A stretch of DNA of 64,000 nt from Corallococcus sp. AS-1-6 (lineage in GTDB: Bacteria > Myxococcota > Myxococcia > Myxococcales > Myxococcaceae). Under the pieces are notes generated by a model, which was not told the origin of the DNA, did no database searches, and was given only the letters and a program-made list of their open reading frames with translations. Positions 41,219 through 48,192 of this stretch are shown here, piece after piece. Location: assembly GCF_020037015.1 (NCBI RefSeq), contig NZ_JAIQDE010000021.1, forward strand, positions 62,001 to 126,000. The letters are read 5' to 3'. The position numbers and the translations under genes were made by a program. Every line of letters begins with the position of its first letter. The first letter of the stretch is position 1.

Positions 41219-41644
41219 ATGCCGATGGAACGAGCGCAGCGGTTCGTGGACGCACTGTTGAAACTGGAGGAGCACGGCGACCTCGAGCCGCTGGTCGCCC
41301 TCTTCACCGAGGACGCGCAGGTGAGCAACGTCGCGTCACCCAACGTCTTCTCCGGCATCGACGGCGCCCGCCGCTTCTGGACCGAGTACAAGGGCACCCT
41401 CGGGCAGGTGAAGTCCACCTTCCGCAACATGATTGAGTCCGGTGACCGCGTGGCCCTCGAATGGGAGACGCAGGGCACCGCGCGCAACGGGGCCGCCATC
41501 GCCTACGAGGGCGTCTCCATCATCGAGTGGGACGGCGACCGCGTCCGTCGCTTCTTCGCCTACTTCGACCCGCACGCCCTGGGCCAGGAGCTCGCGCACG
41601 GCACCGCGGCCCGGTCGCAGGTGCCCTCGACGACACCGGCCTGA
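41219..41644 (+). CDS. SnoaL-like / NTF2-like domain protein
   Basis: This 141-residue protein starts at MPMERAQRFVDALLKLEEHGD. The fold pattern (helical start, LVALFTEDAQVSN, then GARRFWTEYKGTLG and strands ending RVRRFFAYFDPHAL) matches SnoaL-like members of the NTF2 superfamily. These include small isomerases, cyclases and ligand-binding proteins. Catalytic residues cannot be assigned. It is divergent from the membrane-protein gene. Confidence 0.78.
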   Translation: MPMERAQRFVDALLKLEEHGDLEPLVALFTEDAQVSNVASPNVFSGIDGARRFWTEYKGTLGQVKSTFRNMIESGDRVALEWETQGTARNGAAIAYEGVSIIEWDGDRVRRFFAYFDPHALGQELAHGTAARSQVPSTTPA

Positions 41645-41830: not shown

Positions 41831-42646
41831 ATGATGACTCGCGTCATTTCCCCTCTCCTGGCTGTCCTGCTCCTGGCGGCCTCCCCCGCTGGCGCGGCCT
41901 TCGCGCCGGACGCCCCCGTGCTCGTCGCCGCGGCCAAGCGCAAGCCCGTGAAGCGCAAGCCGGCGCGTCCCGTGTCGGGCACGGTGCAGGAGACCGCCCC
42001 CGCGGCGTCCCCCGCCGCCGCGCCGCCCATGACACCGGACGTCACACCGCCCGTGTCCGCCACGCCGGAGCCCGGCTCGACGGGCGCCGCCGCGCCGCAG
42101 GACACCGGCAGCGGCACGCCGTCCCCGGAGGAGCCCAGCCTGGACTTCGACCTGCTCACGCCGGAGGCGGAGGCGTCCAAGGGCCTGTTGGATCCAGACC
42201 TCCAGAAGGACCTGGAGACGCGCCGCACCATGCTCAAGCTGCACCAGGGCCTGGGCCTGGCCATGGCGGGCGGCCTCACCGCGGCCACGGTGCTGGGGCA
42301 GCTCCAGTTCAACGAGTCGTTCCGGGGCGGCGGGGACAACCGCACGCTGCTCGCCTGGCACCGGGGCGTCATCATCGGCACGTCGGTGCTGTTCGCCACG
42401 GTGGGGACGCTGGGCCTGCTGGCGCCGGATCCGGTGGAGCGCCCGTTCCAGTGGGACACGGTGACGTTCCACAAGATCTTCATGAGCCTGGCCACCGCCG
42501 GGATGATCACCCAGGCCATCCTGGGCATCCTGGCCACCCACAGCTACGGTGAAATCACGGAGCCGAAGTACGCAACCGCGCACCAGGTGGTGGGCTATGC
42601 CACGTTGGGTTGCGTCGCCGCGGGCATCGTCACGCTCACCTTCTGA
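41831..42646 (+). CDS. Exported four-helix, His-rich membrane protein (cytochrome b561-like)
   Basis: The protein is 271 residues from the first of two ATGs. A signal peptide (1-23) is followed by a Lys/Arg cluster and a Pro/Ala/Thr-rich linker (about 40-110). Four hydrophobic helices lie at about 139-157, 176-197, 215-236 and 251-271. A histidine stands at the beginning of each: His138, His177, His214 and His251, with His237 extra. Regularly placed His at helix ends is how cytochrome b561-type proteins hold two haems. The downstream YceI and tandem-Rieske genes support an electron-transfer role. Haem binding is inferred from pattern, not shown by a known family motif. Confidence 0.6.
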   Translation: MMTRVISPLLAVLLLAASPAGAAFAPDAPVLVAAAKRKPVKRKPARPVSGTVQETAPAASPAAAPPMTPDVTPPVSATPEPGSTGAAAPQDTGSGTPSPEEPSLDFDLLTPEAEASKGLLDPDLQKDLETRRTMLKLHQGLGLAMAGGLTAATVLGQLQFNESFRGGGDNRTLLAWHRGVIIGTSVLFATVGTLGLLAPDPVERPFQWDTVTFHKIFMSLATAGMITQAILGILATHSYGEITEPKYATAHQVVGYATLGCVAAGIVTLTF

Positions 42647-42724
42647 CCCTCATCCCCCTGTCGTGAATGTCTCCGCGCGCCGGCCGTTGTGCGGAGGCAA
42701 GCCGTATCCCCTCTGGAGGCCGCT

Positions 42725-43297
42725 GTGATTGCTCGACGACTCGTTCTGTCCGCTGCCCTGCTGCTCGCGCTGCCCGCCGCCGCGCAGAACGCGAAGATGT
42801 ACTCGGTGAAGAAGGACGCCAGCTCCCTCACCTACAAGCTCATCCACAAGATGCACACCGTGTCCGGCAAGGCGCCGCCCAGCGAGGGCAAGGCCGTGCT
42901 GAAGCCGGACGGCACCCTCCAGGTGGCCGTGCGCGCGCAGGTGAAGGACTTCGACTCGCAGAACTCCAACCGCGACACGCACATGCTGGAGGTGACGGAG
43001 GCCTCCAAGTTCCCGCTGGTGGAGGTGAAGGCCGTGGGCACGGGCGTGAAGCCGCCCGCCACCTTCCCCGGCAGCGTGCCGGTGACCCTCAAGGGCAAGC
43101 TCACCTTCCACGGCGTGACGAAGGACGTGGAGATCCCCATGACGGTGAGGTTCGACTCCGAGAAGCAGGTGACGGCGGACGGCTCCTTCAAGATCAGCCT
43201 GGAGGGCTACAACATCGAACGGCCCACGCTGCTGCTCGTGAAGGTGGAAGACGAGCTGGTGCTGGAGCCGCACCTCGTCTTCACGGAGGGCACGTGA
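42725..43297 (+). CDS. YceI family periplasmic protein
   Basis: The protein is 190 residues from a GTG at 42725. A signal peptide (about 1-21, ending LPAAAQ) is followed by the YceI lipocalin-like barrel: SSLTYKLIHKMHTVSG, VKDFDSQNSNRDTHML and GKLTFHGVTKDVEIPM are typical blocks. YceI proteins bind isoprenoid chains such as polyprenyl-pyrophosphate or ubiquinone-like lipids. Here it sits between a putative b-type membrane protein and a Rieske protein, so a quinone-related role is plausible. The stop overlaps the Rieske gene start (GTGA). Confidence 0.85.
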   Translation: MIARRLVLSAALLLALPAAAQNAKMYSVKKDASSLTYKLIHKMHTVSGKAPPSEGKAVLKPDGTLQVAVRAQVKDFDSQNSNRDTHMLEVTEASKFPLVEVKAVGTGVKPPATFPGSVPVTLKGKLTFHGVTKDVEIPMTVRFDSEKQVTADGSFKISLEGYNIERPTLLLVKVEDELVLEPHLVFTEGT

Positions 43298-44097
43298 GCT
43301 CGTCGCGTCGGGACTTCTTCAAGAAGCTGCTGGGCACGGGCGTGGTGGTCGCGGGCCTGCCGCCCGCGTGCGCGCCCAACATCGACCCCGCGCCGGTGCT
43401 GGACGTGCCCATGCCCGGTGACGACGGCATCGTGGCGCTGGTGGTGCAGCGCTACCCGGACCTGTCCCGCGAGGGCGGCGCGGTGACGCTGCGCTTTCCG
43501 GGCGGCTCCGGGCAGGAGAACCTGCTGGTGGTGCACCCCACGGCGAACACCTACGCGGTGCTGTCCGCGACGTGCACCCACGTGGGCTGCCCCATGGGGT
43601 TCGACGGGACGGAGGCCGTGTGCCCCTGCCACCTGTCGAAGTTCTCACTCGACGGCAAGGTGACGCAGGAGCCCGCCACGGTGCCGCTCAAGACGTACGT
43701 GTGCACGTACAACGCGGGCACGCAGGTGCTGAGCATCAACATCAAGGCCGGTGACGACTCCTTCCCCGCAGTGGAGAGCGGCAAGGTGACGCTGACCTTC
43801 GCCCAGTTCCCGGACCTCCAGAACGCGGGCGGCATGGTGAGCGGCAAGCCCAGCGGCTACGGCAAGCGCATCTTCGTCTTCAAGCTGGACGACGGCTCCT
43901 ACTCGGCGGTGGACGCGGACTGCCCGCATCAGCACTGCGAGGTGGGCTTCGAGGCGAGCATCGACGAGCTGCTCTGCCCCTGCCACGCGTCCACGTTCAC
44001 CAAGACGGGCGTCGTCACGAAGGGCCCCGCCACCAGCGACCTGAAGAAGTTCACGGTGACCGCGGACGCGTCCGCCGTGGTCGTCACCATCGCCTGA
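43294..44097 (+). CDS. Tat-exported protein with two tandem Rieske [2Fe-2S] domains
   Basis: This 267-residue protein starts at a GTG. The twin-arginine motif SRRDFFKK lies at 4-11 with a hydrophobic stretch to about 22. The first Rieske domain has Cys94-x-His96 and Cys110-x2-His113, with Cys99 and Cys112 available for the stabilising disulfide. The second has Cys210-x-His212 and Cys228-x2-His231, with Cys215 and Cys230. Both clusters therefore have full ligand sets, which is unusual since most Rieske proteins carry one. The disulfide pairs suggest high redox potential, as in quinol-oxidising Rieske proteins. It is coupled to YceI. Confidence 0.85.
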   Translation: MSSSRRDFFKKLLGTGVVVAGLPPACAPNIDPAPVLDVPMPGDDGIVALVVQRYPDLSREGGAVTLRFPGGSGQENLLVVHPTANTYAVLSATCTHVGCPMGFDGTEAVCPCHLSKFSLDGKVTQEPATVPLKTYVCTYNAGTQVLSINIKAGDDSFPAVESGKVTLTFAQFPDLQNAGGMVSGKPSGYGKRIFVFKLDDGSYSAVDADCPHQHCEVGFEASIDELLCPCHASTFTKTGVVTKGPATSDLKKFTVTADASAVVVTIA

Positions 44098-45345: not shown

Positions 45346-46455
45346 TCAGGCGATGGTGAGCGCGTCCCCCAGGTGCACCAGCCCCCGGAAGTCCTCCAGG
45401 TCCGCGCCCGCGTCCGGCGCGGCGATGGCCAGCGCGCCCCGGGGCAGCCCCTCCGCCAGCCTCGCCAGCAGCGAGCGGTGGGCCTTCGCGCGCGCGTCCT
45501 CCATGCCCGCCAGGTGCTCCAGCGCGCTGACGGCGTCCGTGTCCGCGGCGTTGCTCGCGTGCGGCTTCAGCGCGGCGGCCGGGGCCAGGCCTTCGTCCCG
45601 CGCCCAGCTCCGGTTGAGCACGTAGCCCGCGAAGGGCAGCCCCTTGGCCTGGAGCGCCTCCTGGAAGAAGGTGGCCTCGCGCAGCGCGGCGGCCTCCGGC
45701 GACGTGACGAGCAGGAACGCCGCGTCCTTCGACGACAGGTGCTCGCGCAGCCGGTCCGCGTGCAGGCGGATGCCGGCGAACAGGCCCCCGAAGGCGGCGA
45801 CGAAGCTGCGCATCTCCTGCGCGAAGCCGCCGCCGAAGATGCCGTCCAGCACCTTGCCCACCAGCGCCTGCGCGCCCTGCCACAGCCTGCCCGCGCGGCC
45901 CTGCTCCTGCCCGAAGAGGGAGATGACCCGCTCATCCAGGAAGCGCGACAGGCGGCCCGGCGCGTCCAGGAAGTCCAGCGCGTGGCGGCTGGGCGGGGTG
46001 TCCAGGATGATGAGGTCGTAGTGGCCCTCCGCGATGAAGCCGTCCAGCGCCTCCGCGGCGGCGTACTCCTGCACGCCCGCGACCAGCTCCGACAGGAAGC
46101 GGTACAGGCGGTGCTCCAGGATGGCGCGCGCGGCGCTCTCCGTGGCGGACATCCGGCGCACCATGCGCTCGAAGACGACGCGCGGCTCCAGCATCCACAC
46201 GTCCAGCCGCCCCTCGCCGCGCTTCCCGTCCGCGTACAGGCGCTCCGGAGGCACGGAGGTGGGCTCCGCGCCGTTCTCCTTCAGCCCCATGGCCTCCGCC
46301 AGCCGCCGCGCCGGGTCGATGGTGAGCACCAGCACCTTGCGCCCCGCGCGCGCCGCGGCCACGCCCAGCGCCGCCGCCGTCGTCGTCTTGCCCACGCCGC
46401 CCGCGCCGCACAGCACGAGGATCCGCTTGTCGCGCAGCATGCCGTCCAGGTTCAT
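45346..46455 (-). CDS. ArsA/GET3-like ATPase (first of a pair)
   Basis: This 369-residue protein has the deviant Walker A CGAGGVGKTTT (about 16-26), switch I DPARRLAEAMG (about 47-57) and switch II LDTPPSRHALDFLDAP (about 160-175) of the ArsA/GET3 family. Eukaryotic members insert tail-anchored proteins; bacterial ArsA drives an arsenite pump. No arsenical pump or ArsR is nearby, and a Cys cluster for arsenite is not visible, so arsenic resistance is unlikely. It starts four bases inside the end of the other ArsA-like gene. Two half-size ATPases encoded together suggest a heterodimer. Confidence 0.85.
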   Translation of the reverse strand: MNLDGMLRDKRILVLCGAGGVGKTTTAAALGVAAARAGRKVLVLTIDPARRLAEAMGLKENGAEPTSVPPERLYADGKRGEGRLDVWMLEPRVVFERMVRRMSATESAARAILEHRLYRFLSELVAGVQEYAAAEALDGFIAEGHYDLIILDTPPSRHALDFLDAPGRLSRFLDERVISLFGQEQGRAGRLWQGAQALVGKVLDGIFGGGFAQEMRSFVAAFGGLFAGIRLHADRLREHLSSKDAAFLLVTSPEAAALREATFFQEALQAKGLPFAGYVLNRSWARDEGLAPAAALKPHASNAADTDAVSALEHLAGMEDARAKAHRSLLARLAEGLPRGALAIAAPDAGADLEDFRGLVHLGDALTIA

Positions 46456-47405
46456 GGCGTGGCCTCCCGGCCGCGTGGCGCGGCCCCTTCGAGTGTGGAC
46501 TCCAGCAGCTCCGCCAGCCGCTCCACCAGCGCCATGCCCGTCAGCGCCAGCTCCGGCAGGCCCCAGTGGGGCACGCCCACGCCCGCCGCCAGGCGCTGGC
46601 GGGCCTGCCGCGCGCGCTCCAGCCGCTCCAGGGCCCGCTGCCCCTGGTGCGGCCCGTGCGTCTCCAGCAGCCGCTCCAGCGCCGCGCGCGACTCCGGCGT
46701 GAAGGGGTCCTCCGGCATGCGGTTGAGCACCGCGGCGGACAGGGGCAGGCCCACGTCCCGGAGCTCGCCCACCAGCGCCAGCGTCTCGCTCACCGGCAGG
46801 GGCTCCGGCAGCGTGGTGAGCACCACGCCCGTGCGGGCGGGGTCCTGGAGCAGGTCCAGCCCCTCGCGCACCGCGCGCCCCACCGGCCCGCCCGGCATCA
46901 GCGACAGGATGCTCCGGGGCAGCGTGGCCAGCGCCAGCGCGTGGCCCGTGGCGGGCAGGTCCACCACCGTGAGCGGGTGCACCCGGCGGCCGTCCGGGTG
47001 CGAGAGGCGCAGGAGCGCCAGGAGCTGGAACATCAGCCCCATCTCCTTGAGCGCCGGGCCCGCCTCCAGGAAGCGCCGCAGCGCCCGCGAGCGCAGCGCC
47101 GCCTCCGCCAGCCACTTCACGGGCAGCGTCTCCTCCAGGAACAGCCGGTGCCCCTCCTGCGCGGACAGGCGCACGAAGGACAGGTTCGGCCCCGCGGGCA
47201 CCACGCGCGGCCCGGCCTCCTTCACGCCCACCAGCCCCGAGAGCGCGGACGGGCCGCCCTCGTCCGGGGACAGCTCCGCCAGCAGCACCGGCCGGCCCGC
47301 GCGCGCCGCCGCCACCGCCAGCGCGGCGGAGAGCGTCGTCTTGCCCACGCCGCCCTTGCCCGACACGAGCACGGCGCGTCTGTTCCACAAGGACTCCAGC
47401 ACCAC
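46452..47405 (-). CDS. ArsA/GET3-like ATPase (second of a pair)
   Basis: The protein is 317 residues from a GTG at 47405 behind a GGAGGA ribosome site. An upstream ATG at 47525 would add 40 Arg/Ala-rich residues and is less likely. Walker A is SGKGGVGKTTLS (about 14-25). Switch II VVDLPATGHALALATLP keeps the D-x-P-x-x-G-H arrangement. It overlaps the partner ATPase by four bases (ATGA). Only about a quarter of residues seem shared with the partner, so the pair is old. Client or membrane role is unknown. Confidence 0.82.
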   Translation of the reverse strand: MVLESLWNRRAVLVSGKGGVGKTTLSAALAVAAARAGRPVLLAELSPDEGGPSALSGLVGVKEAGPRVVPAGPNLSFVRLSAQEGHRLFLEETLPVKWLAEAALRSRALRRFLEAGPALKEMGLMFQLLALLRLSHPDGRRVHPLTVVDLPATGHALALATLPRSILSLMPGGPVGRAVREGLDLLQDPARTGVVLTTLPEPLPVSETLALVGELRDVGLPLSAAVLNRMPEDPFTPESRAALERLLETHGPHQGQRALERLERARQARQRLAAGVGVPHWGLPELALTGMALVERLAELLESTLEGAAPRGREATP

Positions 47406-47769
47406 GCCCCCATCCTCCGCGCCAGCGGCGCGACCCTTCACGGTGAGCAAGGAAGCGCGTCCCGACAACCGGCCGGCGATGCGCCCAGGGGCGACCGTCC
47501 GTCTGGCCGCCCGCTCCACGAGCATAGCGGCTTTCCGTCCACGACCCCCCGCACCCCTTCGCCGCGCTGACCCGGCCGTGACACAACGGCCACGCACAAA
47601 CGCCATGACGCGACGTGCGAGGAATGACCCGGCCCGGAGGGACACGTGGCGTGCGCGCACGCGTGACCCGGGGGGTTGGACGGGCGGACGCCGGGGGAAA
47701 GAAGGGGTCACGGACTGGTGACGGCCCCCGGGTTTTGGGTACCCTGCGGCCCTCTGCGTGGGAGAGGGC
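47406..47769. other. Long non-coding gap between the ArsA pair and the STAS-like gene
   Basis: No convincing gene lies here. It contains a perfect 14-bp palindrome GCGTGCGCGCACGC (47649-47662) and a TACCCT hexamer (47740-47745) 24 bases before the ATG at 47770. Divergent promoters for the two flanking genes are the likely content. Confidence 0.4.
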
Positions 47770-48192
47770 ATGGTGGTGATGCGGGAGTGGGTCTTCGGGA
47801 CACAGCGTGTCTCGCTGGAGTCCTCCGACATCCTCTGGATCAAGGTCCGGGGAGCGTTCTCAGAGACGGATGTGCGGGCGCTGGTGGACGTGTTCCACGA
47901 GCTGGGGGCGAGCCCGGAGAAGCCCCTGTACCTCGTCGTGGACCTGAGCAGCTCCGAGGGGCTGTCGGTCGCGCCGCGCAAGTACCTGGCCGAACATGTG
48001 AGCACCACGTGGTTCCGCGCGGCCGTCTTCTTCGGCGCCAAGCGCACCCACCGGGAGGTGCTGCGCGCGCTCGTGGTGGCGCTCAACTTCATCCGCGACA
48101 CGAAGCTGGAGGCGGAGTTCGTGGACTCGGAGGCCCAGGCCCGCGCGTGGCTGGAGTCCCACCGGCGCCGTCACGAAGCGGCGCCGCGCTGA
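47770..48192 (+). CDS. STAS/SpoIIAA-like protein A
   Basis: This 140-residue protein has an alternating strand-helix pattern: ILWIKVRGAF, helix to HELG, PLYLVVDLSSS, APRKYLAEHV, AAVFFGAK and a C-terminal EAQARAWLESHR helix. This fits the SpoIIAA-like/STAS fold used in anti-sigma antagonists and lipid-binding proteins. The SSSEG stretch could be a phosphorylation site, but this is not established. A clear paralog of the same length (49068-49490) lies 0.9 kb away, with an unrelated gene between them. Confidence 0.6.
   Translation: MVVMREWVFGTQRVSLESSDILWIKVRGAFSETDVRALVDVFHELGASPEKPLYLVVDLSSSEGLSVAPRKYLAEHVSTTWFRAAVFFGAKRTHREVLRALVVALNFIRDTKLEAEFVDSEAQARAWLESHRRRHEAAPR

Follow-up and report, generated by a model that had tools for sequence, protein, structure and literature searches.

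Gene pairs that join a cytochrome b561 to a YceI-family protein are widespread, with known examples in two bacteria. In E. coli, yceJ (encoding a putative cytochrome b561) lies immediately upstream of yceI, and in Burkholderia cenocepacia the b561-type gene lcoA is followed directly by the YceI gene bcnA in one operon (PMC9113575). YceI homologues bind isoprenoids including ubiquinone-8 (PMC9113575, PMC8981238). LcoA was proposed to re-reduce the quinone held by BcnA, and Burkholderia lcoA-bcnA mutants contain more peroxidised lipid (PMC9113575). Fusion of a YceI domain to a c-type cytochrome is also known: in Cbp2D of Cellvibrio japonicus a quinone-binding YceI-like domain is linked to c-type haems, with electron delivery outside the membrane (PMC8981238).

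The locus described here is located in a 64-kb stretch of DNA (the window) on contig C13 of a 9.5-Mb Corallococcus genome (G000). It comprises three genes on the same strand which encode a b561-like membrane protein (protein 1), a YceI protein (protein 2) and a tandem Rieske protein (protein 3; Table 1). The open reading frame coordinates agree with the spacing given by an earlier, sequence-only reading of this DNA, i.e., a gap of 78 bases (42647–42724) between the first two genes and an overlap of the last two, which amounts to 4 bases (GTGA, 43294–43297). That reading took the genes for a possible new electron-transfer module. Almost certainly, the three neighbours do make up a single electron-transfer set, and the idea was likely right in kind; its suggestion of novelty was half right because the b561–YceI pair is known from yceJ-yceI and lcoA-bcnA (PMC9113575). 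Among the papers searched, none joins YceI, cytochrome b561 and Rieske, and none of the three that mention YceI and Rieske treats both as a module, as far as their titles and abstracts tell.

The locus shares with lcoA-bcnA the direct succession of a b561-type gene and a YceI gene. However, LcoA is classed with the ordinary bacterial b561 cytochromes; protein 1, by contrast, lacks a Pfam match and shows a histidine layout of the eukaryotic type, and myxobacteria add either a Tat lipoprotein with tandem Rieske sites or a two-haem c-type lipoprotein. The E. coli pair has neither a Rieske nor a c-type partner, and Cbp2D, which is secreted as one protein of several domains, includes a carbohydrate-binding module and lacks a b561. 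Based on these comparisons, we read the set as a myxobacterial variant of the b561–YceI pair, with a candidate b561 that has escaped recognition and an exchangeable lipoprotein as putative redox partner.

Table 1. Coordinates of the three-gene locus and its surroundings (positions in the 64-kb window) and of features at related loci (positions preceded by a locus number)
Feature	Position	Strand	Remarks
SnoaL-like (NTF2-fold) gene	about 41219–41644		Pfam assignment; upstream of protein 1
b561-like membrane protein (protein 1)	41831–42646	+	271 aa; 63 distinct relatives
His138 codon	42242–42244	+	heads helix 1; predicted to share the outer-side haem with His214; conserved 63/63
His177 codon	42359–42361	+	heads helix 2; predicted to share the inner-side haem with His251; conserved 62/63
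His214 codon	42470–42472	+	head of helix 3; conserved 63/63
His251 codon	42581–42583	+	head of helix 4; conserved 63/63
YceI-family periplasmic lipocalin (protein 2)	42725–43297	+	190 aa; GTG start; Sec signal peptide; PF04264
Tandem Rieske protein (protein 3)	43294–44097	+	267 aa; GTG start; PF00355 twice; AF2 model
Tat signal (SRRDFF) with lipobox-like LPPAC end	43294–43371	+	Cys26 codon 43369–43371
Rieske site 1: C94-T-H96-V-G-C ... C110-P-C-H113	43573–43632	+	complete (CTHVGC...CPCH)
Rieske site 2: C210-P-H212-Q-H-C ... C228-P-C-H231	43921–43986	+	complete (CPHQHC...CPCH)
Two adjoining genes with ArsA/Get3-like P-loop starts	45346–48101	-	SGKGGVGKTT, CGAGGVGKTT
Two-haem c-type lipoprotein (DHC) genes beside b561–YceI	L066:4604–5134, L073:5653–6138, L074:3830–4312, L077:4306–4833, L078:5830–6330, L080:5659–6102		
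DHC unit fused to multihaem cytochrome (genome G049)	L079:2796–4364		ten CXXCH in all; directly after YceI
Divergent protein 1 family members	L083:3676–5040, L084:3622–4188		each missing a helix-head His
ECF sigma/anti-sigma-like genes at module	L088:3696–4921, L101:3390–4612, L087:7391–8622, L090:6873–8242, L076:5948–7040		L088 and L101: pair on opposite strand between YceI and b561
b561 and tandem Rieske genes about 4 kb apart	L099:1822–7378		681-aa protein and 443-aa Tat-signal protein between
Alternative Complex III and caa3-type oxidase cluster	L199 (G000 C3:8000–26000)		

Recurrence and the exchangeable lipoprotein partner

Relatives of protein 1 are encoded in 86 of the 195 Myxococcota genomes searched, and plasmids carried relatives of neither protein 1 nor protein 3. 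After removal of duplicates of G000 and G006, 95 distinct b561 loci were tallied. A YceI gene lies on the same strand within 2.5 kb at 82 of them, a Rieske gene is present at 64 and a gene for a two-haem c-type lipoprotein (DHC) at 14, and there is not a single one of the 95 where Rieske and DHC genes occur together. Since locus counts are inflated by close relatives, the numbers of genera matter more. Loci with Rieske are distributed over 12 genera in 5 families, those with DHC over 10 genera in 6 families. The gene order b561–YceI–Rieske, for which the sequence-only reading had suggested a search in other phyla, was found again within Myxococcota in 9 genera belonging to 3 families (g1, g4, g8, g9, g18 and g41 of family f1; g24 and g30 of f5; g61 of f15, outside the taxonomic order), and chance therefore does not explain the gene set. 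Further genera show other arrangements (YceI–b561–Rieske or b561–Rieske).

DHC stands in the place of the Rieske protein beside b561–YceI in about ten genera. The DHC proteins have two CXXCH sites (PGxDCxxCH ... CNxCH) on either side of a conserved middle part, and most members carry a lipobox-like cysteine. A DHC profile was run over the phylum, and 12 of its 14 best matches (E ≤ 1.3e-41) adjoin a protein 1 gene. Genome G037 has both a Rieske-type and a DHC-type locus, at separate places. As judged from gene neighbourhoods, the strongest evidence of electron transfer by the set is that a single core pair associates with either of two unrelated and exchangeable lipoproteins, each a putative one-electron carrier. 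The third, exchangeable redox lipoprotein that myxobacteria add to the b561–YceI pair provides candidate partners for the reduction or oxidation of YceI-bound quinone and for the onward path of its electrons, and genetics in Myxococcus and similarly amenable bacteria can put these candidates to the test.

The DHC family follows the pattern PG[QE][DN]CxxCH ... AGNFY ... CNxCH and is not represented by a good Pfam model. Weaker DHC paralogues occur away from the module in many Myxococcota, including G000 (contigs C18 and C81).

Protein 1 and its four histidines

Protein 1 consists of a Sec-type signal peptide (about residues 1–25), a linker rich in lysine, proline and alanine, an FDLL motif (residues 106–109) and four transmembrane helices corresponding to four hydrophobic segments, each of which opens with a histidine (positions 138, 177, 214 and 251). 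The sequence-only reading had likened these residues to the haem ligands of b561-type dihaem proteins, and their conservation among 63 distinct relatives (Table 1) is in line with that proposal. Of the two observations which that reading said would refute it, unconserved histidines and a gene order that does not recur, neither was made within Myxococcota. A fifth histidine, His237, is not conserved in these relatives; near-invariant residues besides the histidines are R131, R132, G142, G156-Q157, P199, D209 and G255.

In eukaryotic b561/Dcytb proteins (PF03188) a histidine likewise heads each of four consecutive helices, and the spacing is similar, i.e., 39/37/37 residues in protein 1 versus 36/34/39 in human Dcytb, taken from a sequence identical to 5zle over 240 residues. 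The haem ligands of human Dcytb are H50, H86, H120 and H159, with the pairs H50–H120 and H86–H159 (PMC6123691). By analogy, i/i+2 pairing is expected in protein 1, where His138–His214 and His177–His251 would each hold a haem. The eukaryotic proteins have six helices; protein 1 has four, together with a signal peptide and a long linker, and its similarity to them is below every curated cut-off.

No Pfam match was obtained for protein 1 of the window. When 35 diverse relatives were scanned singly, weak matches to PF03188 (eukaryotic b561) appeared in 15 and to PF01292 (prokaryotic b561) in 12 of them, the best E value being 0.0011 in both cases; other weak matches were to PepSY_TM (4 relatives) and ferric reductase (2 relatives). 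Reversed sequences of 18 members gave no b561 match and no recurrent family. Together with the conserved histidines, these sub-threshold matches and their absence from the reversed controls support a b561-like dihaem pattern, with haem itself predicted. No protein 1 locus was above the curated cut-off in a genome search with PF03188, and profile–profile comparison gave a non-significant probability of 34% against prokaryotic b561 (PF01292 members) and of 2%, likewise not significant, against two eukaryotic b561s. In view of these comparisons, we claim only likeness to b561 and not membership in either b561 family. To current family models, this family of four-helix, four-histidine proteins is not recognisable as cytochromes. 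An AF2 model of protein 1, built on an alignment of ten close Corallococcus sequences, was poor (pLDDT 54.7), a fold search with it matched just nonspecific helix bundles, and the model was not used further.

Use of the signal peptide would place the His138/His214 pair at the periplasmic face. However, an invariant RR precedes helix 1, which is unusual for a periplasmic face and makes the topology less certain. The mean number of K+R residues in the family is 4.0 on the N-terminal flank versus about 2 in every loop.

The missing Pfam match and the poor model would also fit three adjacent genes that share no redox function, in which case protein 1 would be a structural or sensory membrane protein. 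Given the recurrence in 9 genera, the exchange between two redox partners and the four invariant histidines, we regard this as highly improbable. Two divergent members of the protein 1 family (L083, L084) have each lost a helix-head histidine, and neither YceI, Rieske nor two-haem c genes are found beside them.

YceI and tandem Rieske proteins

Protein 2 belongs to the YceI family, as the sequence-only reading had recognised, with a score of 67.5 bits against a Pfam cut-off of 23.7 (PF04264). Four genes of the host genome encode YceI proteins and two encode b561 proteins of PF01292; since these are located on different contigs, the genome has no ordinary LcoA–BcnA pair.

The Rieske model PF00355 matches protein 3 twice (87.6 bits; cut-off 20.3). 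Its two complete Rieske sites and its Tat signal were correctly seen by the sequence-only reading; to be precise, the signal is of the Tat lipoprotein kind (SRRDFF...LPPAC). In relatives the lipobox reads LP[AG]C (LPGC, LPAC), followed by APD, or LGGC or LSGC, from which LPPAC of the window is slightly off. Because the Tat signal ends in a lipobox-like cysteine that is canonical in relatives, protein 3 is probably a membrane-anchored Tat lipoprotein rather than a bc1-like transmembrane subunit. It is also below the equivalog cut-offs for bc1/b6f Rieske proteins (TIGR01416, 53.3 of 97.4 bits; NF045928, 74.1 of 250 bits). The AF2 model (pLDDT 82.7) matches Rieske structures. By sequence, the best solved structure is PetC3, the plasma-membrane Rieske protein of Synechocystis (5cxm, 4e-11), which is also among the best fold matches of the model. 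PetC3 has a single Rieske domain, whereas protein 3 is a tandem pair with a Tat lipoprotein signal.

All relatives examined have an intact site 1. Site 2 has degenerated in L063, is missing from L087 and L022, and is devoid of its disulphide cysteine in L018; this second site is dispensable. Phenylalanine takes the position of the bc1 cluster tyrosine (after CPCHxS) at either Rieske site of protein 3, a replacement that would lower the potential of the clusters. A contig scan with the Rieske query gave matches limited to Corallococcus and one Myxococcaceae metagenome-assembled genome.

Respiratory context and possible functions

The sequence-only reading suggested that the module could move electrons between a quinol and a periplasmic acceptor without a bc1 complex. 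Indeed, cytochrome b of bc1 (PF00033, PF13631) was not detected in the host genome, whereas eight control genomes were matched. The genome does encode Alternative Complex III (five-CXXCH cytochrome, Fe-S subunit, NrfD and ActD), followed by genes of a caa3-type oxidase. Because of Alternative Complex III, we rejected the idea of an obligatory bc1 replacement, and the notion that the module serves in place of bc1 is weakened. A second NrfD/pentahaem cluster (L198) is located on contig C13, which also harbours the window.

Our best explanation, to which we would give about an even chance, is an envelope redox module of the b561–YceI kind with an antioxidant or stress-responsive role and outside the main respiratory flux. 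Protein 1 would be a b-type cytochrome with two haems, one held by His138/His214 towards the periplasmic face and one by His177/His251 towards the cytoplasmic face. Electrons would cross the inner membrane through it one at a time, linking the (mena)quinone pool with the periplasm. The YceI barrel may hold an isoprenoid quinone, and YceI may trade electrons with the b561 in the manner suggested for LcoA–BcnA. The next one-electron relay would be the Tat-exported lipoprotein with its one or two Rieske clusters or, in other genera, the two-haem c-type lipoprotein. The likeliest purpose of such a chain would be redox balance of envelope quinone and lipid chemistry, and the module probably serves envelope quinone/antioxidant chemistry.

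Besides the recurring gene order, the four conserved histidines with their Dcytb-like spacing, the weak b561 matches and the precedents of LcoA–BcnA and Cbp2D, several observations support this explanation: the proteins of L083 and L084, in which a helix-head histidine is lost, are also without both partners; quinol oxidation is already served by Alternative Complex III; lipobox-like signals occur on Rieske as well as two-haem c proteins; and genes for ECF sigma factors, in some cases paired with anti-sigma genes, adjoin the module in several relatives (L076, L087, L088, L090 and L100), suggesting that it may be under stress control. What counts against it are the properties of protein 1 of the window, i.e., the missing Pfam match, the weak profile comparisons, the poor AF2 model and the RR before helix 1.

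Alternatively, and in line with the sequence-only reading, the set might form a respiratory branch in which the b561 oxidises menaquinol of the inner membrane and electrons pass via YceI and Rieske (or two-haem c) proteins to a periplasmic or outer-membrane acceptor; relatives with multihaem cytochromes might feed extracellular acceptors. The lack of bc1 cytochrome b, the fusion of the partner to a ten-CXXCH cytochrome in G049, and the exchange of electrons between b561-type proteins and quinone (SOO; PMC11869295) are compatible with this. Nonetheless, we consider it somewhat unlikely, given Alternative Complex III with caa3 oxidase and the second NrfD-type cluster; moreover, 109 of the 195 genomes searched do without the module, which marks it as accessory.

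Electrons might also flow inwards, from periplasmic radicals, superoxide or reduced lipoprotein partners via the b561 to the membrane quinone, with YceI and Rieske collecting or buffering electrons. The precedent is the superoxide oxidase CybB of E. coli, a four-helix dihaem b561 which oxidises superoxide and reduces quinone (PMC11869295; PMC9113575). Protein 1, however, is not recognisable as a member of the CybB family, and a donor rather than an acceptor role of Rieske proteins is presumed, which makes inward flow clearly unlikely in our view. The cofactor types expected for the set are those of the bc1/b6f complex, i.e., two b haems in a helix bundle, a Rieske cluster and a c haem. From that complex the set differs in that the genome has no PF00033/PF13631 cytochrome b and the Rieske protein is a lipoprotein instead of being transmembrane-anchored. 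A further reading, which we judge to be very unlikely, is a dismantled bc-type quinol oxidase. YceI would offer quinol outside the membrane, and bifurcation would be spread over three separate proteins, one electron passing to the lipoprotein Rieske (or two-haem c) protein while protein 1 would receive the second on its low-potential b haem. The antioxidant envelope module remains our preferred reading.

Judging from relatives, the genes on either side of the module reflect synteny rather than membership in the set. The SnoaL-like gene is also found upstream of the module in the f1 relatives L086, L091–L093, L095 and L096, yet in L091 and L092 an opposite-strand gene parts it from the module, which argues for placing the flanking genes outside the set. 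Downstream of the Rieske gene, a gene encoding a CBS-domain protein is located on the other strand. The arrangement in L099 (Table 1) is possibly a larger variant of the module. The ArsA/Get3-like gene pair is likewise present beside the module in the Myxococcaceae loci L091, L092, L095 and L096.
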